IMG/VR virus record: IMGVR_UViG_3300037189_013052
Location: 1-52,394 of that record
DNA: 52,394 nucleotides
Source: a virus
Direction: 5' to 3' (one strand)
The position numbers and the translations under genes were made by a program. Every line of letters begins with the position of its first letter. The stretch's first letter is position 1. Under the pieces are notes generated by a model. It did no database searches. It was given only the letters and a program-made list of their open reading frames with translations, and had not been told where the DNA came from. Shown here piece after piece: positions 4,480 through 37,459 of the stretch.

Positions 4480-4659
4480 ATGCTTATCGGTACTTGCATT
4501 CTCTCCGTCGTTGTCGGCATCTGGCTGGTTCACTTCCTGCATGAAGTGGAGCACGGCTACAGCCGGAGCGAGATTGATCGTCAGCTTGATTCCTATCGGG
4601 CAACTGATGATGAACTGATCGACTGGGATCATCACACCAGCGGAGGGCGCCGTGGCTGA
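4480..4659 (+). CDS. 59-residue single-pass membrane protein
   Basis: Starts at ATG 4480 with an AGGAG-type ribosome binding site about nine bases upstream. Residues 2-20 (LIGTCILSVVVGIWLVHFL) form a membrane helix. The remaining 39 residues are polar and acidic with several histidines. Function unknown. The following gene begins with GTG 4652 inside its last codons. Confidence 0.55.
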   Translation: MLIGTCILSVVVGIWLVHFLHEVEHGYSRSEIDRQLDSYRATDDELIDWDHHTSGGRRG

Positions 4660-4837
4660 TCTTTCTCCGGCAGCAGAATCCGTCTGGGAAGCCTTCAACC
4701 TGGACAAGCCTGGGGTGCTGGTTGATTACGGCGAGTGCTTGGCTGCGGCACTCAAGGCTGCTGCTCTTTATTGCCCTCACAACCGGCACGTTCTGCTCAT
4801 GATCGCTTCGGAGCTGGAGGGACATGGCCCGCTCTGA
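4652..4837 (+). CDS. small cyanobacterial-type hypothetical protein
   Basis: A 61-residue protein from GTG 4652. It shows the pattern LSPAAxxVxxAF ... LAAALKAAA ... LLxIASELE, which recurs in small uncharacterised proteins of picocyanobacteria and their phages. This resemblance is from memory of the pattern, not a search. It overlaps both neighbours. Confidence 0.6.
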   Translation: MADLSPAAESVWEAFNLDKPGVLVDYGECLAAALKAAALYCPHNRHVLLMIASELEGHGPL

Positions 4838-5048
4838 GCATTTCCAAGCCGCCACGCTTCGCATCGAGGCGCAGCGCGACGGTGATCAGTGGTCATTCAC
4901 CGCCTGGCGCCCTCACGTCAGCCAAGGCTTCACCGATAGCCGCTCCCTGCTGCGGTGGGCGAAATGGCCGATCAAGACACCAACCGGCGACGCCCTTCGC
5001 CAGTGGCTTGCTGCTTTGGAATCTGCGCCGGTGGCGATCGATGGCTAA
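4824..5048 (+). CDS. 74-residue hypothetical protein
   Basis: Starts inside the preceding gene and ends inside the following one. It contains a short strand-rich core (QWSFTAWRPHVSQGF) and a Trp-rich helix (LLRWAKWPIKTPTGDALRQWL). No family recognised; conserved operon overlaps are the support. Confidence 0.55.
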   Translation: MARSEHFQAATLRIEAQRDGDQWSFTAWRPHVSQGFTDSRSLLRWAKWPIKTPTGDALRQWLAALESAPVAIDG

Positions 5049-5334
5049 GCATCCGCTCACCGAAGACGCAATCCGGGACATCCTGACCAGCGAAGAACCT
5101 CGCGACACGCTGGCCCGGCGCTACGGCTGTCACCGCTCCGCGATCTATCAAATCCTGGACGGCAAGAGCCATGCCGCCATCGCGCCAGAGCTGCCCCGCC
5201 GGCAGCCGGCCCGTAGCTGCAGCGATTGCCAGCACTGGCAGCACGGCAGCGAGTGCGACCTGGGGTTCCCGGATCCTCGGCTGGAGGGGATCCAGTTCGC
5301 CCGCGACTGCTCCACCTATGTGGCGCGGACCTGA
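5041..5334 (+). CDS. HTH protein with C-terminal cysteine motif
   Basis: A 97-residue protein. Residues about 6-40 form a helix-turn-helix (RDTLARRYGCHRSAIYQILD). The C-terminal half carries CSDCQHW, then SECDLGFPDPR and RDCSTY, four cysteines and a histidine that could hold a zinc or a small disulfide-like cluster. This architecture suggests a small phage DNA-binding regulator acting near the integration genes. The stop overlaps the start of the excisionase-like gene. Confidence 0.65.
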   Translation: MAKHPLTEDAIRDILTSEEPRDTLARRYGCHRSAIYQILDGKSHAAIAPELPRRQPARSCSDCQHWQHGSECDLGFPDPRLEGIQFARDCSTYVART

Positions 5335-8645: not shown

Positions 8646-8954
8646 ATGGCAGCGCCGACACTGGCATGGGGCGAGTCCAATCTGTTCCGGCTGCCCGACG
8701 ACAGCCACCTATGGGGCAGGGAGTTTGAGCTACTGCCGGCCGGCACAATGTTTGCCGCCGGTTCGATCCTCCACGGCTTGATCGGCATCGAGGCGGAACC
8801 ACTGGACGGCAGTCGCTGCCAGATCAGCGATGGTGCGCTGCTGGTGATCATCGGGCTAGGCAAGACTGAGACCGACGAGCTGGAGGGCTATCGCGATGAT
8901 GTGATCAGCGGTTTCAAGGCAAGGCAGCTGCAGGATGTTGACGCTCAGGGCTGA
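8646..8954 (+). CDS. hypothetical protein, plus-strand insert in late operon
   Basis: A 102-residue protein; GTG 8643 is an alternative start. The sequence alternates short strands (FELLPAGTMFAAGSIL, then ALLVIIGLGKTETDELEGY) and looks like a small beta-barrel. It is divergent from the C39 peptidase and its last ten bases overlap the convergent membrane protein gene. Function unknown. Confidence 0.6.
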   Translation: MAAPTLAWGESNLFRLPDDSHLWGREFELLPAGTMFAAGSILHGLIGIEAEPLDGSRCQISDGALLVIIGLGKTETDELEGYRDDVISGFKARQLQDVDAQG

Positions 8955-9241
8955 CGCCGCTTGAACCGGCCTGATTCATCCCGCTCAGCGCCAGGCTGAT
9001 CCTGGGCCCGCAGGGCAGGGTTGAACGTGCCATAGCCGAGGGTGAACCCGCCCCTGCCGGCGGCTCCGATGCCCATGATCGGCAACGCGGTCATCCAGCA
9101 GCGGTCCATGCCCTCGGGGCCCCGGTTGCTGAGGCGGCAGTCGATCAGGTAGATCGAACCAACGGCAAGGGCCATGCTGGAGGCGGCCTTAAACACCGAG
9201 CTAGCGGCGCCGATGGTGCCGAGGATGCTGCTGAGCTTCAT
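8945..9241 (-). CDS. small membrane protein of lysis region
   Basis: A 98-residue protein with a hydrophobic N-terminus (about residues 8-33, IGAASSVFKAASSMALAVGS...) and a charged C-terminus ending ESGRFKRRQP. Size, topology and position between the coiled-coil membrane protein and the C39 peptidase fit a holin or antiholin partner. Start overlaps the stop of the upstream gene. Confidence 0.55.
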   Translation of the reverse strand: MKLSSILGTIGAASSVFKAASSMALAVGSIYLIDCRLSNRGPEGMDRCWMTALPIMGIGAAGRGGFTLGYGTFNPALRAQDQPGAERDESGRFKRRQP

Positions 9242-13251: not shown

Positions 13252-14172
13252 TCAGGCCACCACGGCCGCATCGGTCACGCCGAACAGGCGACTGGCAGAA
13301 CGACCGTTGTAGATCGCCATGCCGCAATACCATTCGATCCGGGTGCGATCGACAGGCGCATCAGGCACTTCGCCCATAGCCCGCACCGAGATGCCGAACT
13401 GCCCGCGGCAGCGGCCCTGGATGGCAGTGGTGAGCAGGTCACCCATCGCCACGCAGTAGATGCTGGTGCTGGAGCTGGCTTCGGTGAACGGCTGAACCGT
13501 TTGGTTCTGAGCATTCACATCCGTCACGATGATCGGAATGTCGCCGTACTGCGTCACCCGACGACCGAAGGTGTCCTGCTCATAGTTGATGAATCCACCG
13601 ATGGAGGTGGCACGGCTGGCGGTATTCAACCGGCGGCGCATCTTTTTGTTCATGATCAGCACCTTCTGGCCGCCCATGGCGTCCACGGCATCGATCAGCT
13701 CATCGAGGGCCGACAGCGACAGGGCGCCGCCCATCGAGATCGCCTGGGAGCTACCGGAAACGATCCGGCGCTTCAGGCCATCAAAAGCGCGAGGGTTGGC
13801 CGATTCATCACCGTTGATGAACTGATCCTCGAACGTCATCCGCATCGAGGTGACCTTCATCCGCACCTGATCACCCACGGCATCAGGGCCGCGCATGTCG
13901 ATGATGGAAGTGTCAACATCAACCTCAGCGCCAAGCACCTTAAGGCGCTCAGATTGGGGGTTGAGCACGCCGTAGGAGGCATCGAGAGTTTCGTTGATGC
14001 CACGGAAGCCCACGGAGGGCAGCTCCTGCTCAACGTCATAGAACACGCCTTCGCCTTCCACATCCTGGAAGGGGATCACGCGCATCAGTTCGCCTTCGGC
14101 GAGTTCACGAATAACAGCGAGGCGAGCCGGATCCCTTTCGGATTTGGCAGCCTCCAACAGGGTTAAGCCCAT
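13252..14172 (-). CDS. major capsid protein
   Basis: A 306-residue protein. Features typical of HK97-fold capsid subunits are an N-terminal helical arm (LLEAAKSERDPARLAVIREL), a strand-rich E-loop-like part (MRVIPFQDVEGEGVFYDVEQ), a helical spine with ALDELIDAVDAMGG and a final WYCGMAIYNGRSASRL segment. It assembles the icosahedral shell. It follows the scaffold-like gene and precedes the putative decoration gene, the standard capsid trio, but the trio is far from portal and terminase. Confidence 0.75.
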   Translation of the reverse strand: MGLTLLEAAKSERDPARLAVIRELAEGELMRVIPFQDVEGEGVFYDVEQELPSVGFRGINETLDASYGVLNPQSERLKVLGAEVDVDTSIIDMRGPDAVGDQVRMKVTSMRMTFEDQFINGDESANPRAFDGLKRRIVSGSSQAISMGGALSLSALDELIDAVDAMGGQKVLIMNKKMRRRLNTASRATSIGGFINYEQDTFGRRVTQYGDIPIIVTDVNAQNQTVQPFTEASSSTSIYCVAMGDLLTTAIQGRCRGQFGISVRAMGEVPDAPVDRTRIEWYCGMAIYNGRSASRLFGVTDAAVVA

Positions 14173-28803: not shown

Positions 28804-29273
28804 GCCGGCACCTCCAGGCTCAGGCTGATCGCATCACCGAGGGCAGCACGAAGCTCTGCACCGATCCCGCCGACTCCGAACACACCGGCGACGCTGATCA
28901 CTGTCACCTCACCCCGCTGCCCGGCGGTGGTGGCTGGCAGGGCCTCCAGGTAGCCGAGGAACCCACGGGCCTTGGTGCCCGGCAGCAGGCCAGCAGGGGC
29001 CAGGCCGGTGCTATCCCAGCTGAAGGCAGACTGCGCCGCGAGCCAGTCGGTCTGCGCTGGCACCGTGGCGAACGCGGTGATGTAGCCCGACAACACCCGC
29101 GGCGCGGCGCCGATGCTGGGCAGGTCGATCGCGGTGCCGGTCTCACCCTTGACGAACGCCTCGATCACGATCGGATCGCCAGCGGCTGGCACACCAGCGC
29201 GGAAGTTGGCGATGGTGCCCGGCGGTGTCCAGAGGATGCGGACGTTGGCGTAGGGGGCGAAGTCGGTGGCCAT
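28800..29273 (-). CDS. neck/head closure protein
   Basis: A 157-residue beta-rich protein (VRILWTPPGTIANFRAG, VIEAFVKGETG, EVTVISVAGVFGVGG). It overlaps both flanking connector genes by one to four bases. No family recognised; role inferred from being the middle gene of the connector set. Confidence 0.55.
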   Translation of the reverse strand: MATDFAPYANVRILWTPPGTIANFRAGVPAAGDPIVIEAFVKGETGTAIDLPSIGAAPRVLSGYITAFATVPAQTDWLAAQSAFSWDSTGLAPAGLLPGTKARGFLGYLEALPATTAGQRGEVTVISVAGVFGVGGIGAELRAALGDAISLSLEVPA

Positions 29274-29782
29274 CAGGAGCGCAGCAGGGCAGCAGCACCG
29301 CCGCCATCCTCGAAGGGTTTGATGCCGAGGGTCTGGAAGATCCGGCCTTTCAGCTGCTGGATCCTGGCGGCCAGCACTCCGCCAGCGGTGGAGTCAGAGC
29401 GGTTGCCGCTGTCGTACTTCACCTGCAGCAGCGAGGTATCCCACTCCAGAACATCGGCCCGCTTCTTCAGGTCATCCCGGCTGAGCGTGGTGCCTGGCGC
29501 CGGGCCCTGATAGCTGGCGACATTGCCGAGATGGGCGGTGCCATCGGCCACCTGATCGGCCCAGGTCTCTTCGAGGTCTTCGATCGCATCAATCCACGCC
29601 TGCACCTGCGTCACCGTGGCTGCTGAGGTATCCGCCGCCCGGTTGAGCACGCTGGTGAGCTGCGTCAGGTTGTAGGCCGAGACGGGCCAGCCGGCATAGG
29701 AGCGGATCAGCTCGCGATCATCCCGCGTGCTGCTACCCGTCGGCCGCCAGAGGGCATTGAGGGTGGGGATCGGGGCGGGCAT
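29273..29782 (-). CDS. head-tail connector protein
   Basis: A 169-residue helical protein (AYNLTQLTSVLNRAADTSAA, TQVQAWIDAIEDLEETWADQ) with a C-terminal LAARIQQLKGRIFQTLGIKP. Helical architecture and place at the head of the connector group fit an adaptor that docks on the portal ring. Confidence 0.6.
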   Translation of the reverse strand: MPAPIPTLNALWRPTGSSTRDDRELIRSYAGWPVSAYNLTQLTSVLNRAADTSAATVTQVQAWIDAIEDLEETWADQVADGTAHLGNVASYQGPAPGTTLSRDDLKKRADVLEWDTSLLQVKYDSGNRSDSTAGGVLAARIQQLKGRIFQTLGIKPFEDGGGAAALLRS

Positions 29783-29813: not shown

Positions 29814-30635
29814 TTACTTGCTGCGGGATCGGGCAGGCTTAGTGAGAGTGTTATCCCGCATCTTGGCCATGCGCTTGCGCAGTTGCTCTGGATCCCTTGT
29901 TCGAGTCAGTCGCGATTTTGTTTTAACCTTTGGATCAATCTTCCCATTGTAAATATCTTTCGCTCGCTTGGCAACTGAAGCGCTACGACTTGCCTTGCTT
30001 CCGGGCCCATCGCTTTCTTTCTTCATTGCTTCAGTATAGTTGGCGCTCGCTCGCTTCGATCTGTCTATTTCTCTAATCCTCTGCCTTGTTCGAGGTGAGT
30101 CGCTAGGTGCCTTTGGTAACTTCGTTGATCTATTCCTTTCCATGAGCCGAACTTTGGCGGCTGCGCTGTTCGCCTTCCGCTTAACATCTGCATCCGCACC
30201 TCTAAGATCGTCTTTGCCGTATCTCATTGCCTTTGCGTCCTTATATCGCTGCTTTGCCGGATTGACAGGTGCCTTAGATGTCTTTGCTACTGGTGCCGAA
30301 CCTTTGCCCGAGCTCTTGATCCTCCCAGCCGCCGCCAACTTCGCGCCAGCTGTTGGGTTACGGGTCACCCTGCCCTTGATGGTGCCGGCCCGGCTGCCGC
30401 CGATTGCCCTGGCGGTTTGCGTAGCACGCTGCTTGCCGCTTGCGGTCTTGAGGCGACCACCACGGGCAGTGGCGCCATTGCCGCCGACTGACGTGATCTT
30501 GCCAGCGTTATCGCGAGTGAGGCGGTTTGCGCCACGGCTGACGGCCTTAGCCGCGGGACGTTTTCCGCCACCGCCCGATCCGCCACCTCCGCCAGCGAAG
30601 CGACCGTTCGCATCACGTTTGTAGGAGCGGGCCAT
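29814..30635 (-). CDS. highly basic protein with MARSYKRD/GRFAGGGG N-terminus
   Basis: A 273-residue protein, very rich in Lys, Arg, Ala and Ser and predicted to be largely disordered. It starts MARSYKRDANGRFAGGGG, almost the same as the divergent protein at 30722. The rest carries repeated short basic motifs (AKRAKDIYNGKIDPKVKTKS, TRTRDPEQLRKRMAKM). It lies between MuF and the connectors. A virion-internal DNA-binding or ejected protein is plausible. The DNA of the middle part is more AT-rich than its neighbours. Confidence 0.65.
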   Translation of the reverse strand: MARSYKRDANGRFAGGGGGSGGGGKRPAAKAVSRGANRLTRDNAGKITSVGGNGATARGGRLKTASGKQRATQTARAIGGSRAGTIKGRVTRNPTAGAKLAAAGRIKSSGKGSAPVAKTSKAPVNPAKQRYKDAKAMRYGKDDLRGADADVKRKANSAAAKVRLMERNRSTKLPKAPSDSPRTRQRIREIDRSKRASANYTEAMKKESDGPGSKASRSASVAKRAKDIYNGKIDPKVKTKSRLTRTRDPEQLRKRMAKMRDNTLTKPARSRSK

Positions 30636-30655
30636 GTGCTAGGGGCAGCGATGCC

Positions 30656-30667
30656 ACAGGTTTCCGG
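30656..30667 (-). repeat. start-associated 12-mer (basic protein)
   Basis: CCGGAAACCTGT, 11 of 12 positions, 20 bases before ATG 30635. Confidence 0.6.
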
Positions 30668-30689
30668 TATCACCACGGTCCAAGTGATC

Positions 30690-30701
30690 CCGGAACACTG
30701 A
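30690..30701 (+). repeat. start-associated 12-mer (divergent basic protein)
   Basis: CCGGAACACTGA, 10 of 12 positions, 20 bases before ATG 30722, the same spacing as the opposite copy at 30656. Confidence 0.5.
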
Positions 30702-30721
30702 GCCGAACCCAGGTAGCAGTC

Positions 30722-31099
30722 ATGGCCAGGTCGTATAAGCGTGATGGCAGCGGCCGCTTCGCCGGGGGCGGTGGCGGTGGTGGTGGTGGCAAGGGCGGTG
30801 GTGGTGGCAGCAAGGGCAAGGGCAGCGCCAAGCCCAAGGCGGCCGCCAAGCCCGCAGCACCTAAGGCTGCACCAAGGACCAGCTCCACTAAGGGGCAATA
30901 CAAGGCTGCCATGAGCAATGCTCGGAACATGCTGCGGGCGGACGTAAAAACATCTCGCGCCAACATTGAAAAGGGCTCCGCTTCCTACCAGGGGCCTTTG
31001 CGTTCTGCGCTGGCCGCCAACTACAGACAGCGTCGCAGCGTGATCAGAGAGGCAGCCACGGCACTAGGTGTTGCACGCGGCGGCAAGAAGCGGAAGTAA
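30722..31099 (+). CDS. divergent basic protein sharing the MARSYKRD N-terminus
   Basis: A 125-residue basic protein. Residues 1-18 (MARSYKRDGSGRFAGGGG) are nearly identical to those of the minus-strand neighbour, and a long Gly/Lys/Ala linker follows. The C-terminal 60 residues (YKAAMSNARNMLRADVKTSR, YRQRRSVIREAATALGVARG) are helical and unrelated to the neighbour. The shared N-terminus looks like a common tag, perhaps for packaging into the virion. + strand within the late region. Confidence 0.7.
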   Translation: MARSYKRDGSGRFAGGGGGGGGGKGGGGGSKGKGSAKPKAAAKPAAPKAAPRTSSTKGQYKAAMSNARNMLRADVKTSRANIEKGSASYQGPLRSALAANYRQRRSVIREAATALGVARGGKKRK

Positions 31100-31137: not shown

Positions 31138-31149
31138 ACGGAAACCTAA
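31138..31149 (+). repeat. start-associated 12-mer (gene at 31171)
   Basis: ACGGAAACCTAA, 11 of 12 positions, 21 bases before ATG 31171. The next eight bases (GCCGCCCC) are the same as after the minus-strand copy at 35942. Confidence 0.6.
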
Positions 31150-31170: not shown

Positions 31171-31338
31171 ATGACCAGCCCTGTCACCGCTGTCGGCCGC
31201 CTACTTCAGCCCAAGCATGGTGAGCCACGCATCCTGCATCGGATCGCGATCAGCAAGGATGGCCGAGTGCGCACCATCCAGCGCCGTGAGCTGCCGGCTA
31301 CGCCATCCGCGACAGCCACAGGCGGCCGCCGCCGCTGA
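31171..31338 (+). CDS. 55-residue basic hypothetical protein
   Basis: A short + strand frame (MTSPVTAVGRLLQPKHGEPR, then ILHRIAISKDGRVRTIQRRE) with an Arg-rich end. It is below the usual size cut-off, but the start-associated element in front of it and the beta-rich basic pattern support it. Its 3' end overlaps the convergent gene at 31298. Function unknown. Confidence 0.5.
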   Translation: MTSPVTAVGRLLQPKHGEPRILHRIAISKDGRVRTIQRRELPATPSATATGGRRR

Positions 31339-32246: not shown

Positions 32247-35200
32247 TCATCCGAATAAAGATTCCTGCCCTGGCGCTTCAGGTGGCAGTGTAGGTGGCGC
32301 ACCGGGAATCACGCTCAACACTTCACGCACAGCATCAGAGATTTCACCGCGTAGTTGCTGCTGAATCTGTTGTCGCTCCTGGGCCGATTTCGCATCCATG
32401 ATGGCCCTTGCGCCGCGGTCAAGGGCCTGGCTAACAGGGCTGGAGAGATTCTTCATCTGATCAAACACAGCTAGCACTCGCTCAACCTCGGCAGACGCCT
32501 CGCGATTAGCCGCGGTATCCACCTGGCTGCCGGCTTTCCGAAGTGCCTGCTCTGCCCTACTGGTCGAGAGCGTCTTGAATAGGGACTTGTCCTCCAGTAG
32601 CTCATCCCGCATGGACCTGGTGACGTCTGCGCGACTGAGCTTAAATCGCTCCGCGTCCGGGTCGTTGAACAGCTCCAAGGTCGAACCCTGCTGCATCGAT
32701 GCTTTCTCAGCGGCTACCAACTCGCGCACAACGTCAGCGCTTGCCGTTGGACGCCTGGCCAGGATGCTGGCAACGTTGCGCATGCCCTGCGAGTCCAAGC
32801 CGGCTCCACCAATCTGCGAAGCCTTCTCGATCCCAATCGTTTCATTCACGACAGCCGACCAGAGATCATCTGGCAGGCTGGCAAGGTTGGCACCATCGCG
32901 TGCCGCGGCTTTCTTTAAGGGGATACCCATCGCCTGCATGTCCGCAGCGGTGTAACCCTTCTCACGCATGAACTTTGCCGCATCGATAGCCGTGCCTTGA
33001 CCTTCGGCGATGTTGGCCAATGCGCCCATGGCCCTGGCTTCTGCCGCATCGGATGCGTTGATGTAGCGAACGCTCACCGCGTCAGCGCCAAGGCGACTTG
33101 CAGCCGCCAGTCTATTGTGACCGTTGATGACATAGGTCTGACCATTGGCCGGATCCTTCCAGACGCTGATCACGCCGGCTAAGGTCGGGTCGTATCTGCT
33201 GACCCCCTCCAGGCTGCCGACTTCCCCAGTCTTGGCATCGGTGGCTGCTTTGTACTGGAAGCGCTCCGCATCAGCTCGCACCTGATCGGGCCGCAGTGAT
33301 CCAATGGATCCAGCCTTTGCGGTTGTCGGATCCAGTAGCCGGGTCGGCAGCTTGCTGAGTGTCAGGTCTGCCGGCTTGGCCGCCAGCTCCAGTTCAGGCG
33401 GTTCAGCCAGCTGCCCGGCACGCTTGGCTTTCAGGTCGGCAACACTGCGCAGCATGCCCTTACTGCTGCCGGCCATTCGCGCCACTTCGCGATCAATGGC
33501 AGCATTCACCAGAGCATTGCCGTCCTTAGTGGCCTGCGCCTTAGCTGATCGGGTCGGCGCATCTTGAACAGCGGCAGCTGCATCGTTCATTGCCTTCGCA
33601 ATGGCGCTGCTGGGTTGATTCTTGAGCAGATCAAACACATCGGACCGTGAGCGAGCCTCAGCCGCCTTGATCTGCGCCTGCTGCACGTCGATCTTGTTAC
33701 CCTTTGCCGCCAGCACATCGGCTTTGCCCGCCGCCTTATCTAGAACGCGAATCTCTCGGTTCTGCTCGGCTCGCAGCTTGGCCGCAAGCTCAGCCCTTTC
33801 GATCATGGTTGAGGTTTCAACCTGGCTAGTACCGAATAGGGTTGACTCTTCCCGCACTCGCGCCTTGCTGGCTCGCGCTGCCTGCAGAACTTCATCCAAG
33901 GTTGCGGAGCTCATGGACGGCTTACCCTGCAGCACCTTGTAGGCATCGGCCATCTGACCTTGCGTCAGGCCGCTGCGACCAATCGCGGCACCGTGCTCAA
34001 TCGAGAGGCGACCTTCTGCCGCCGCCGAGAATATGAAATCGGGAAGTTCCGCAAGTGCTGCACCGTTTCGCGCTACAGAGCCCTTGAGGTTCAAGCCCTG
34101 AGCAAGCATGTCCTTTGCCCGTTGGCCGGTGTCCCGCATGAACTTTGCCGCATCGATTGCGGTGCCATCTCCATTGGCGATGTTCTGCTTAGCGCCAATC
34201 GCTCTTGCTTCGGCAGCGGTTTTAGCCTCGATGTTCAGCACCGGCACCTGGCCGGCACCTAGCTTGTTCGCTAACGCCAGCCGGTTATGGCCATTGATGA
34301 CATAGGTCTGGCCGTTCGCCGGATCCTTCCAGACTGACAGGACGCCAGCTAGATCCTCGTTCCACTTCTGCACGCCGCGCAGACTGCCAACCTCACCGGT
34401 TTCGCTGTTGGCGCCGACCTTGTACTGAAAGCGGGCCGGGTCAGCCTTGATGTCAGAGGTTTTCATCCGCGAAACCCGGTCAATCATCGGCGGGCCCTGC
34501 TGATCTCGCGGCGCCGTAGGCGTAGGCGGCATGGCGCCCATTGGGGACTCTCCTTTGCCGAACAGCGGCACCGACTCCCCCAGCGATTGCGGATTCTTCG
34601 GATACAGCCGCTTCTCTGATGCTGTTGGTGTTCGCAAGGCTCGGGCCAGATCAGCTCGGGCCTTTGCCATGTCTGGCCCCTGCTGCTGCAGCTTGAGGAT
34701 CTTTGCGTCCATCGCATCGATCAGGTCAGGATCCTTTAGCCGGGCCCGTTGCGCCTGCAGGCCCTCCAGTTGGGAGCGGTGCTGGCCCTCGGCGAAGGCT
34801 TCAACGCCACGCTCATGCTCCGCCTGCCAGCGCTCGTTGTCGAGCAGCACGGCGCGGCTATCCGGGTCTCTTTCCTGCACCGCTTCATCGGCGACAGGAA
34901 CCACGACGCAGCGGCAGCGAGGATGCCACGGCACCGGCACCCGATCGATCGGATACACCCGCCCATTGCGGCTCGCGCAGGTCGGGCAGGTCCGCTCATC
35001 ATTGCTGGCCAGCACCCGGACGTAGCTGTAGCCCTGCTGCCGGCTGCGGGTCAGTGTGCCCTGTGTGTAGGCGGTGGCCAGCTCAGAGCGGGCGATCAGC
35101 GCTGCCCGCTGCTCCAGGCCCAACCTCTGGGTGATGCCGTTCGGATCCTTGGCACCGCGGAGTGCCTGGCGGATCGAGGTTTCCAGCCGGCTCGGGCCCC

Positions 35201-35741
35201 AGCCGCGAGTCGCACCTTCGCCCACGATCTGCGCCAGCTGATCACGAAACCGGGCCGTCTCGCCCTGGATGTAAGCGCTGGTGGTGGTTGCCGCGGCACG
35301 GATCGCCAAGGGATCAGCGCCAGCAAACGGCACCTCTGCCGGCGGCCGGCCGACCATGGTCATCAGCTGCTGGCCCAGATCACCGCCAAGCTGGGCGGCT
35401 TCGCGCAGGTCGCGCTCGTAGGCCACCGTCCATTGGCGCAGTTCTTCCTCGCCCATGAACTGCTGAGCGTCCAAGGTGATCGCCCGGAACTTCGCCGTCG
35501 CTTCGGCTGCCGAGTAGGCGCCAGGCCGGCGGATCGGGTTACGGGCCGGGTCGTAGCCCTGCGGACCCAGCACGTCGATGTAGCTGGCGTAGTGGCGCTT
35601 CAGGTCAACCAGGACGTTCTGAAGAGAGCGCCGCAGCATGAGCACGGTATTTCGTGCGCTGCGGCGCTCCAGCAGGTCCAGGGCTTTGGCGTAATCGTCA
35701 GCGACACCAACCAGTCGCCGTGGCCCTGGAGTCTGCGTCAC
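32247..35741 (-). CDS. MuF-type head morphogenesis protein fused to two ParB-like domains
   Basis: A 1164-residue protein. Residues about 130-285 are the SPP1 gp7/Mu F minor head domain, ending in the zinc-like motif Cys252-Cys255-His273-Cys276-Cys278. Then come two related units of about 250 residues (from about 426 and about 816). Both start FQYK...TGEVGSLxGV and contain the identical VWKDPANGQTYVINGHNRLA, a ParB/Srx-type nucleotide-binding motif, followed by IDAAKFMR and a helical tail. This matches the phage polyvalent protein pattern, in which MuF proteins carry effector domains into the host with the DNA. Partner of the portal. Confidence 0.85.
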   Translation of the reverse strand: MTQTPGPRRLVGVADDYAKALDLLERRSARNTVLMLRRSLQNVLVDLKRHYASYIDVLGPQGYDPARNPIRRPGAYSAAEATAKFRAITLDAQQFMGEEELRQWTVAYERDLREAAQLGGDLGQQLMTMVGRPPAEVPFAGADPLAIRAAATTTSAYIQGETARFRDQLAQIVGEGATRGWGPSRLETSIRQALRGAKDPNGITQRLGLEQRAALIARSELATAYTQGTLTRSRQQGYSYVRVLASNDERTCPTCASRNGRVYPIDRVPVPWHPRCRCVVVPVADEAVQERDPDSRAVLLDNERWQAEHERGVEAFAEGQHRSQLEGLQAQRARLKDPDLIDAMDAKILKLQQQGPDMAKARADLARALRTPTASEKRLYPKNPQSLGESVPLFGKGESPMGAMPPTPTAPRDQQGPPMIDRVSRMKTSDIKADPARFQYKVGANSETGEVGSLRGVQKWNEDLAGVLSVWKDPANGQTYVINGHNRLALANKLGAGQVPVLNIEAKTAAEARAIGAKQNIANGDGTAIDAAKFMRDTGQRAKDMLAQGLNLKGSVARNGAALAELPDFIFSAAAEGRLSIEHGAAIGRSGLTQGQMADAYKVLQGKPSMSSATLDEVLQAARASKARVREESTLFGTSQVETSTMIERAELAAKLRAEQNREIRVLDKAAGKADVLAAKGNKIDVQQAQIKAAEARSRSDVFDLLKNQPSSAIAKAMNDAAAAVQDAPTRSAKAQATKDGNALVNAAIDREVARMAGSSKGMLRSVADLKAKRAGQLAEPPELELAAKPADLTLSKLPTRLLDPTTAKAGSIGSLRPDQVRADAERFQYKAATDAKTGEVGSLEGVSRYDPTLAGVISVWKDPANGQTYVINGHNRLAAASRLGADAVSVRYINASDAAEARAMGALANIAEGQGTAIDAAKFMREKGYTAADMQAMGIPLKKAAARDGANLASLPDDLWSAVVNETIGIEKASQIGGAGLDSQGMRNVASILARRPTASADVVRELVAAEKASMQQGSTLELFNDPDAERFKLSRADVTRSMRDELLEDKSLFKTLSTSRAEQALRKAGSQVDTAANREASAEVERVLAVFDQMKNLSSPVSQALDRGARAIMDAKSAQERQQIQQQLRGEISDAVREVLSVIPGAPPTLPPEAPGQESLFG

Positions 35742-35941: not shown

Positions 35942-35953
35942 TTAGGTTTCCGG
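35942..35953 (-). repeat. start-associated 12-mer (acidic gene)
   Basis: CCGGAAACCTAA, perfect copy, 21 bases before ATG 35920; its TAA is the stop codon of the portal gene. Confidence 0.7.
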
Positions 35954-37423
35954 GTCCAGCGGCAATGGCGGCAGGCCGCCCAGGTCATTCAGCCCTATCG
36001 GATCCGCCGGCTCGGGTCGCTCCTGTTGGATCCGCTCCAGCTCATCGTCCACGCTGGTGGTTCCCTTGACCACACCGGCCCGCTGCAGCTCTTCGATTGC
36101 GGAGCGCTGGCTGATCAGCTCCGCACCACCGGCCAGCTGCTGCAGTTGCGCAATATCGGCCGGCTCCAGGGGCCGCTCATAGAGGCTGGCATTCATCTGC
36201 AGGCCAGCGCCAGCCTGCAGAGTCTCACCGGTGAACAGCACCCAAATCGCCATGAGCGATTGCATGGCCGAGGCTTTGCGTTGCGCGATGCGGATGATCG
36301 TGCTCTCGGTCTGCGCCGACTCCAGCCCCGCCTGTGTGGCCGTCTTGGTGGCCTGGCCATCGCCGTAGAGAAAGCCCAACGTCTGGCGGCTGATCAGCTT
36401 CTCCACCTCTGCGATCTGCGCCCGCTGCTCCGCCAGGCTGGACGCTGAGGGTTCGGCAAAGGTGAAGGAACCGCCGGGCTCCAGATCCACCACGCTGTTG
36501 GGCCCCAGAACCAACGGTCGCCGTGCTTCACCTGGCGCCGGTGGTGCGGCACCAATCCGCACCGGCACTGGCAGAGCACAGCGGTGGGTTTTCTCGCGCA
36601 GATCGGAGCGCTGCTGGAAGTGCTCGATTGAATGCTCCACCACCTGGCGCAGGGGCAGATCGCCTTGCCCGAAGCCGCTTTGATCGCTGCTGTACCAAAC
36701 CACCGGCACGATCGGCAGCGGCTGGCCATTGGCACCTAGGTACTGGCCTTGATCCACCATCACGGCGGTCAGGTCATTGGAGGCGTTGCGCTCAATCTCA
36801 AACAGCATCCATTCCCCGCGGCCGATCACCCGGTAGCGAGGCGTCATCTTGGTGCCGAAGTCGCCGTCCGGTTCTTCGCTCAGCTCCAGCAGCGTCACCC
36901 GCTCCAGGCTCTCGACACCATCGGTGACCGACACGCGCCAGTTCAAAACCTTGGATCGCGCCCGGGCCAGCAGGTAAGGCCGGCGGCCCATGGCGGTCTC
37001 TTCGGCGGCGCTACCGGGCAGGCCATCAGGCATCTCGACGCAGAGCGCTACGCCACCATCGCGCAGCATCCACGCATCGATCTGCTGCCACCAGGCGGTC
37101 AGGCTGTTGCCCTCTAGGTCGATGTTATCGGCGGCGGCTTCCAGGCTGTCGGGCGGATCCTTGAGGCTGAACTTCGACAGCACACCAGCGAAGGCGTGAA
37201 CGGAAGCGCGAAAGAAGTCGGCAAAGGTCGAGCGCGACAGCCGGGCCTTGTAGGCATCATCCGGCTCCTTCGCTTCCTGCGGCAGATACCGATCCTTGCA
37301 ACCCCGCAAGCAGTGGAACGCATCATGCGCCCGCGTCAGATCTTCGGCCAGCTCCCGTAGCGCCGGATGCCGGTAGCTGGGCAGCGAGGCATCGTTATCA
37401 GGTGCGTCAATCTCCAGCTTCAC
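35942..37423 (-). CDS. portal protein (DUF4055 type)
   Basis: A 493-residue protein from GTG 37423. It fits DUF4055 portals: N-terminal LPSYRHPALRELAEDLTRAH, wing region with SLTAWWQQIDAWMLRDGG, strand-rich stem with IVPVVWYSSDQSGFGQGDLP and a helical crown with SRQTLGFLYGDGQATKTATQ. Forms the dodecameric DNA gate at one vertex. Encoded between sigma and MuF. Confidence 0.85.
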   Translation of the reverse strand: MKLEIDAPDNDASLPSYRHPALRELAEDLTRAHDAFHCLRGCKDRYLPQEAKEPDDAYKARLSRSTFADFFRASVHAFAGVLSKFSLKDPPDSLEAAADNIDLEGNSLTAWWQQIDAWMLRDGGVALCVEMPDGLPGSAAEETAMGRRPYLLARARSKVLNWRVSVTDGVESLERVTLLELSEEPDGDFGTKMTPRYRVIGRGEWMLFEIERNASNDLTAVMVDQGQYLGANGQPLPIVPVVWYSSDQSGFGQGDLPLRQVVEHSIEHFQQRSDLREKTHRCALPVPVRIGAAPPAPGEARRPLVLGPNSVVDLEPGGSFTFAEPSASSLAEQRAQIAEVEKLISRQTLGFLYGDGQATKTATQAGLESAQTESTIIRIAQRKASAMQSLMAIWVLFTGETLQAGAGLQMNASLYERPLEPADIAQLQQLAGGAELISQRSAIEELQRAGVVKGTTSVDDELERIQQERPEPADPIGLNDLGGLPPLPLDPET

Positions 37424-37447
37424 CGGGCCTGCTGCGGGCTTCTGGTT

Positions 37448-37459
37448 TCAGGTTGCCGG
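37448..37459 (-). repeat. start-associated 12-mer (portal gene)
   Basis: CCGGCAACCTGA, perfect copy, 24 bases before the GTG at 37423, between the sigma stop and the portal start. Confidence 0.7.

Follow-up and report, generated by a model that had tools for sequence, protein, structure and literature searches.

We have found that two head-to-head genes of a virus encode proteins with the same short N-terminal tag, and that this tag recurs, nearly invariant and followed by very different tails, in 214 of the 223 distinct ORFs listed from uncultured phages. The tag has the consensus MAR-x-Y-x-R-D-x-x-G-R-F-[A/S/T], in most cases followed by a Gly-rich stretch. We estimate at about one half the probability that it is a virion-loading N-terminal signal for a swappable set of cargo proteins. 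The window, i.e. the whole stretch of DNA that was analyzed (52,394 nt; IMG/VR record IMGVR_UViG_3300037189_013052), is viral.

A divergent pair of tagged genes

The gene for P0001, a tagged mosaic basic protein of 273 aa, is located at 29814..30635 on the minus strand; the gene for P0002, a tagged basic protein of 125 aa, is located at 30722..31099 on the plus strand, opposite to that of the surrounding structural genes. The initial annotation had proposed that both proteins begin with MARSYKRDxxGRFAGGGG. Translation gives MARSYKRDANGRFAGGGGGSGGGG and MARSYKRDGSGRFAGGGGGGGGGK, in agreement with this proposal, and the tag takes the form MARSYKRDxxGRFAGGGGG; the tags are MARSYKRDANGRFAGGGG in P0001 (30582..30635, minus strand; N-terminus MARSYKRDANGRFAGGGGG) and MARSYKRDGSGRFAGGGG in P0002 (30722..30775, plus strand; N-terminus MARSYKRDGSGRFAGGGGG). 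The genes are indeed separated by 86 bases from start codon to start codon, and both products are very basic, as had been claimed; they belong to the 214 tagged ORFs, all of which have pI >10. The two proteins were also said to be unrelated past the tag, and a BLASTP comparison finds nothing (best E 2.8); the iterated searches show no similarity either, and homology of P0001 and P0002 beyond the tag was rejected on these grounds. P0001 carries a second tag-like stretch, NRLTRDNAGKITSVGG. Pfam has no family for P0001 or P0002 at E 1. The possibility that the genes are free-standing homing endonuclease genes was rejected, as no nuclease family was detected in P0001, P0002 or nine tagged relatives.

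The imperfect inverted repeat noticed earlier in this region is present at the DNA level (30567..30790), with 70-nt arms (30567-30636 and 30721-30790) that are 76% complementary. It is a by-product of two facing tag-coding stretches and has no separate meaning; a role as a regulatory device was rejected because the arms are the coding sequence of both tags.

On one side of the pair is the minus-strand gene of a conserved 169-aa protein (29273..29782), which in relatives adjoins the slot of the tagged genes. On the other side are the gene of an AbrB-like regulator (PF14250; 31547..31939, plus strand) and, on the minus strand, those of a MuF head protein with ParB-like matches (32247..35741) and the portal protein (phrog_145, DUF4055; 35942..37423). 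The MuF protein is 1164 aa long and has two similar ParB-like stretches, with matches near residues 470-520 and 865-950. The gene of the major capsid protein (GP7/SU10-like; 13252-14172, minus strand) lies ∼16 kb from the tagged pair and ∼22 kb from the portal gene, past the tape-measure gene.

Recurrence and conservation of the tag

Recurrence elsewhere in related phages had been set as a test of the tag, and the tag proved to be widespread and nearly invariant there; it is confirmed that the recurrence is real and larger than the initial annotation had reported. An ATG-anchored pattern of the tag identified at least 120 stretches. An un-anchored DNA pattern for YKRDxxGRFAGG, with no start codon required, identified 88 stretches in viral contigs, and a start codon was situated at most 12 codons away in 90 of the 93 pattern matches in these stretches; the exceptions to N-terminal placing are two loci with the tag deep in an ORF (L047 and L060) and one where the tag is cut at the locus edge (L088). 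With nine of the 223 listed ORFs excluded by a fixed pattern, the set of 214 tagged ORFs, ten of them cut by locus ends, has the exact MARxYxRDxxGRF sequence in 200 cases and contains 211 different tails. For the first 93 tagged ORFs (out of 100, seven having been dropped by eye) pI has a median of 12, and the net charge of the last 15 residues one of +6. In 34 whole records, chosen for holding a tag, the RDxxGRF DNA pattern has from one to six matches per record, versus a single match of the reversed pattern in two of the 34.

Loci were also fetched independently of the tag, 27 by the portal and 31 by the 169-aa neighbour. Of these, 54 were new (partial contigs, several loci from one contig); the exact RDxxGRF tag is present in 23 and absent from 31. 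When the 36,694 start codons of these 54 loci were scanned under relaxed criteria, 22 distinct N-termini had at least seven of the eight core residues (20 exact, one with MAKKY and one with GKF), none had six, and six unrelated background matches had five; an earlier scan of tag-selected loci had produced one more partial match.

The codons of the tag were compared within genomes. In the window pair 10 of the 12 tag positions compared have identical residues, and six of these 10 are encoded by different codons (5.9 expected for independent draws). For 55 within-genome tag pairs from 13 genomes, each with two to five N-terminal tags, different codons were observed at 306 of 537 identical residues. 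Codons that are nearly randomized, with the residues kept, indicate selection on the peptide; since they differ as in independent draws, the protein sequence is what has been kept, as opposed to DNA that was copied lately. The codon divergence likewise led us to reject a recent duplication of the 5′ ends.

In L047, a locus from another phage type, a Phage_portal protein carries the same tag after its portal domain, and L060 shares the residues that flank the tag; the association of portal and tag in L047 could be convergent. Searches of PDB with the tag produced no match. Among the matches listed in literature searches with the tag strings and related themes, no title or abstract opening contained a description of the tag.

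Similar motifs were seen in other positions as well. A 98-aa ORF of the window (8945-9241, minus strand) has the C-terminus ERDESGRFKRRQP, an RDxxGRF motif placed at the end opposite to that of the tag, and a similar C-terminus, ERDESGRFKRRQS, is found near 8704 in L114. In L006, an ORF at 4560-5309 (minus strand), endonuclease-like as judged by eye, has the C-terminus HRRDPATGRYTRITR and is located opposite a 705-aa MuF ORF that looks intein-bearing. In L079, the string RDATGRFIKAG (3969, minus strand) is located close to the N-terminus of a ∼1300-aa ORF that may encode a tape measure protein.

Composition of the tails

The absence of relationship after the tag is true of the pair itself; still, P0001 shares modules with other tagged proteins, whose tails are mosaics of shuffled modules. 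With E <0.1, 72 of the 203 ORFs listed, self included, match residues 25-75 of P0001 (NRLTRDNAGKITSVGG and GATARGGRLKTASG modules; 30411..30563, minus strand). Five rounds of searching traced residues 118-170 (30126..30284, minus strand) to 56 of 223 ORFs, and residues 201-273 (29817..30035, minus strand) have matches in five of 203, self included. The P0002 tail is found in only three of 223 listed ORFs.

Nine tagged relatives have at most one recognisable domain each. DnaJ (PF00226) was detected in two tagged relatives with E-values 5.8e-6 and 2.9e-5, the scores of 26.7 and 24.5 bits being under the curated 27.8; the HPD motif is situated inside the DnaJ-like domain, and the nine PDB matches are to eight DnaJ/dnj proteins and one RabJ. 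A crude HPD pattern also matched three untagged ORFs, set aside by eye as noise. Compared with annotated phages, one tagged J-domain protein produces matches by the J-domain alone, to Haloarcula californiae tailed virus 2 (two records).

The motif HExxH...EFxAE was found in seven ORFs, all of them tagged, though the tag had served to select most of the loci. In the alignment of these seven ORFs, selected by the motif, HExxH and a downstream conserved Glu are present in all seven, and there are 27 invariant columns overall. One tagged protein with this zincin motif has zero matches among annotated phages. A model of the protease domain (AF2, pLDDT 64.9) gave nothing significant in Foldseek (best E 1.1, an Hsp90). 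The best VIA match of the model is the ArdC metalloprotease 6sna (Z 4.6, rmsd 3.5, 73 aligned), with Hsp90 close behind, and the VIA rows are mainly Hsp90, clamp-loader and zincin, all with Z <5. A zincin fold of these tagged relatives is weakly supported and no more than putative.

Placement of tagged genes in related genomes

Synteny was analyzed in 11 records with genes of the window as markers and with gaps determined from aligned residues (records G003 and G006 are alike). The tagged genes are accessory; they are present or absent, occupy variable places on either strand among the portal, MuF, connector and tail genes, and split neighbours that touch or overlap in other records. A tagged gene is located upstream of the 169 gene in 10 of the 11 records (not in G020), between portal and MuF in G018, G019 and G020, and between 169 and 157 in G019, G020 and G027; the 169 and 157 genes overlap by 1 bp in the window, G018, G013 and G024. 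Other tagged genes follow gp10 (G003, G006, G004 and G027) or lie between tail and 142 (G018) and between 142 and TMP (G019). The remaining gaps are filled by untagged genes. In G003, G006 and G004 the slot of P0001 is taken by a tagged J-domain protein, the partner of an opposite-strand tagged gene. In L224/L255 (portion of one 32-kb contig) the 169|157 and gp10|255 junctions are closed up and the tag is absent, and in L221, with 81% portal identity, the place of P0002 has only a short opposite-strand ORF with GKF.

A conserved gene of ∼110 aa with KSHAVLAKEGEKVKLIRFGQQGVSG (6708-7040 in L006; homologues in L098, L099, L105, L262 and L269) also shifts its place among structural genes and is divergent from a tagged gene in L098 and L099.

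In a collection of annotated phages, neither tblastn with P0001 nor megablast with 12 kb produced a match; tblastn with the 24-aa tag gave one Nocardia phage with E 9, taken as noise.

An element upstream of start codons

Each gene of the pair was said to have its own start-associated 12-mer, read here as CCGGAAACCTGA. A copy is situated exactly 20 nt before either ATG: CCGGAAACCTGT, with one mismatch, for P0001 (30656..30667, minus strand) and CCGGAACACTGA, with two mismatches, for P0002 (30690..30701, plus strand). With up to two mismatches the window contains 16 sites versus 3.5 expected, a number reached in none of 100 shuffles. Eleven of the 16 sites precede an ORF no shorter than 50 aa, 17-24 nt ahead of its start; 300 sets of positions drawn at random had 1.9 such sites on average and 7 at most. 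The eleven sites account for 10 different starts, as two overlapping copies (37448-37459 and 37441-37452) precede the same start of the portal gene. A 55-aa ORF (31171-31338, plus strand) starts 21 nt after the element copy at 31138-31149.

In 173 sequences upstream of tagged genes, close relatives included, the element with up to two mismatches precedes 41 genes (0.4 in shuffles), opposite-strand tagged genes among them. The idea of shared regulation therefore stands for some structural genes, the portal gene included, which have a common upstream element, but does not extend to the 132 of 173 tagged genes without the element at this threshold. We infer that CCGGAAACCTGA would be a late promoter element.

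Probable hosts and closest cultured relatives

A search of a genome collection gave a single match to the tag pattern, located in a CRISPR array of Synechococcus sp. ATX 2A4 (L095; array 1-1150, spacer 777-810). A tag-bearing host protein was rejected, since this sole match is a CRISPR spacer. The spacer is 34 nt long and encodes YKRDKSGRFAG. The nearest protospacers among the loci examined are tags with seven mismatches (12 for the shuffled control), and no exact protospacer was found among these loci. Judging by the spacer, picocyanobacteria would be hosts of tagged phages, and the DNA of the tag would be a target of immunity.

The portal protein of the window has 36-40% identity to those of Synechococcus and Prochlorococcus siphoviruses; along with the AbrB-like regulator PF14250, which we take to be of cyanobacterial type, this similarity points to a cyanobacterial host. 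The tagged phages appear to infect Synechococcus cyanobacteria. The closest cultured relatives by portal at this level of identity, the siphoviruses S-CBS2, S-CRES1-3 and PSS2, have the same order of terminase, sigma factor and portal, with other genes between. The RDxxGRF tag is absent from the genome stretches (parts of genomes) of S-CBS2, S-CRES3, S-CRES1, PSS2, MED4-117 and KBS-S-2A. These six stretches and the 31 of 54 tag-independent loci without a tag argue that the signal does not belong to the core assembly machinery.

Comparison with known systems

The capsid targeting sequence (CTS) of phage T4 is N-terminal and ends with the T4-type protease site, [LI]xE. Glutamate is absent from tag and linker in both P0001 and P0002, which therefore lack a T4-type protease site there. 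Like the CTS proteins, the tagged proteins are diverse apart from a conserved signal at the N-terminus. They differ in that the tagged phages are tape-measure phages with MuF and that the tagged genes are dispersed over the structural cluster, with tails composed of shuffled modules; encapsidation of the tagged proteins is a prediction. In T-even phages the CTS is described as a short conserved sequence on diverse accessory proteins that otherwise share little (PMC3012670). The best reading by this analogy is that the tag would work like the T4 CTS, of whose family it is not a member.

Phage polyvalent proteins with zincin-like metallopeptidase and ParB-like domains are predicted to be packaged and delivered (Iyer et al. 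2017, PMC5512222); the word DnaJ is absent from that text. Zincin-like and ParB-like domains occur here too, with the ParB-like stretches located in the window MuF protein. The polyvalent proteins, however, combine many domains in one polypeptide, whereas here we see separate small proteins with a common N-terminal tag; neither P0001, P0002 nor the nine tagged relatives have the two or more effector or nucleic-acid domains per polypeptide that define the polyvalent class. In crAss001, as described in PMC10172136, virus-coded cargo is stored in the particle and one cargo protein is bound to the portal wing; the word ‘signal’ is absent from that text. Virus-coded cargo in the particle is what we propose, from genes, for the tagged set; the crAss001 cargo differs in consisting of few large proteins and in coming from a different phage group.

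Proposed function and alternatives

In our judgement, co-targeting to the procapsid or virion, suggested in the initial annotation, is the best-fitting mechanism, given the accessory basic proteins in a structural cluster, the J-domain and zincin-motif tails of relatives, and the T4 precedent; the location would follow from these features taken together. Virion loading is favoured by the basic accessory nature of the proteins, the near-invariant N-terminal address, the location in the structural cluster, effector-like domains in some proteins, and the tag behind the portal domain in L047; as counterpoints, some tagged genes adjoin tail genes, the major capsid protein gene of the window is ∼16 kb away, many relatives and the six cultured-phage stretches have no tag, most tagged genes have no copy of the upstream element, and P0001 and P0002 match no Pfam family. 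The tag would mark accessory proteins that are very basic and, as a set, variable and open to swapping, and one shared receptor of the assembling particle would take them into the virion; the portal, the MuF head protein and the scaffold are candidate receptors, none of them singled out. The cargo may accompany the DNA into the cell and act there at an early stage, in counter-defence or host take-over. Late expression, virion entry, receptor, injection and cargo role are what we infer from the genes.

Such a basic, Gly-rich tag could just as well be a nucleic-acid binder, with the RDxxGRF turn and the Gly/Lys/Arg-rich linker contacting DNA or RNA, the mosaic tails adding charge, and the proteins being nucleoid-associated or DNA-condensing. 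The pI values above 10 throughout the 214 ORFs and the charge of the tail ends fit such a role, as do the second similar stretch NRLTRDNAGKITSVGG in P0001 and the motifs HRRDPATGRYTRITR and ERDESGRFKRRQP at the ends of the L006 endonuclease-like ORF and the window ORF 8945-9241. We consider it unlikely, as a charge-based binder would need neither an eight-residue core with almost no intermediates, nor an N-terminal position, nor J-domain and zincin-motif partners.

A similarly doubtful alternative is that the tag docks to a host target (e.g. RNA polymerase or ribosome) and that the proteins are moron-like host-takeover factors which need not be present in the virion. Like morons, the tagged genes are accessory and variable, occur on both strands and have, in part, their own upstream element, and the J-domain and zincin-motif domains would suit host manipulation; set against this are the position of the genes inside the structural cluster, the upstream element common to the portal gene, and the occurrence of tagged genes with two different structural modules, the window type and the G001 type. 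Mosaic tails, different genes in the same slot and the shared upstream element would also be expected of a passenger, a promoter-start-tag segment that serves as a recombination joint and spreads by copying with no function of its own. This explanation is very improbable, since near-randomized synonymous codons with kept residues need selection on the peptide.

Returning to virion loading, we tentatively propose, with somewhat less confidence than in the signal itself, that the tag would be a loading code comparable to a signal peptide, that any protein gaining the promoter-tag cassette would become particle cargo in cyanobacterial siphoviruses, that J-domain, protease and other effectors would be swapped behind a fixed address, and that host CRISPR would target this address. 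If this is true, long-tailed phages, too, would own a simple transferable address for packing proteins, and a large family of unannotated basic proteins would become a predicted set of injected effectors, with phage effectors findable by one motif. A second tag of natural origin would then be at hand for bringing foreign proteins into phage heads, and the host immune system would be one that aims at such an address.
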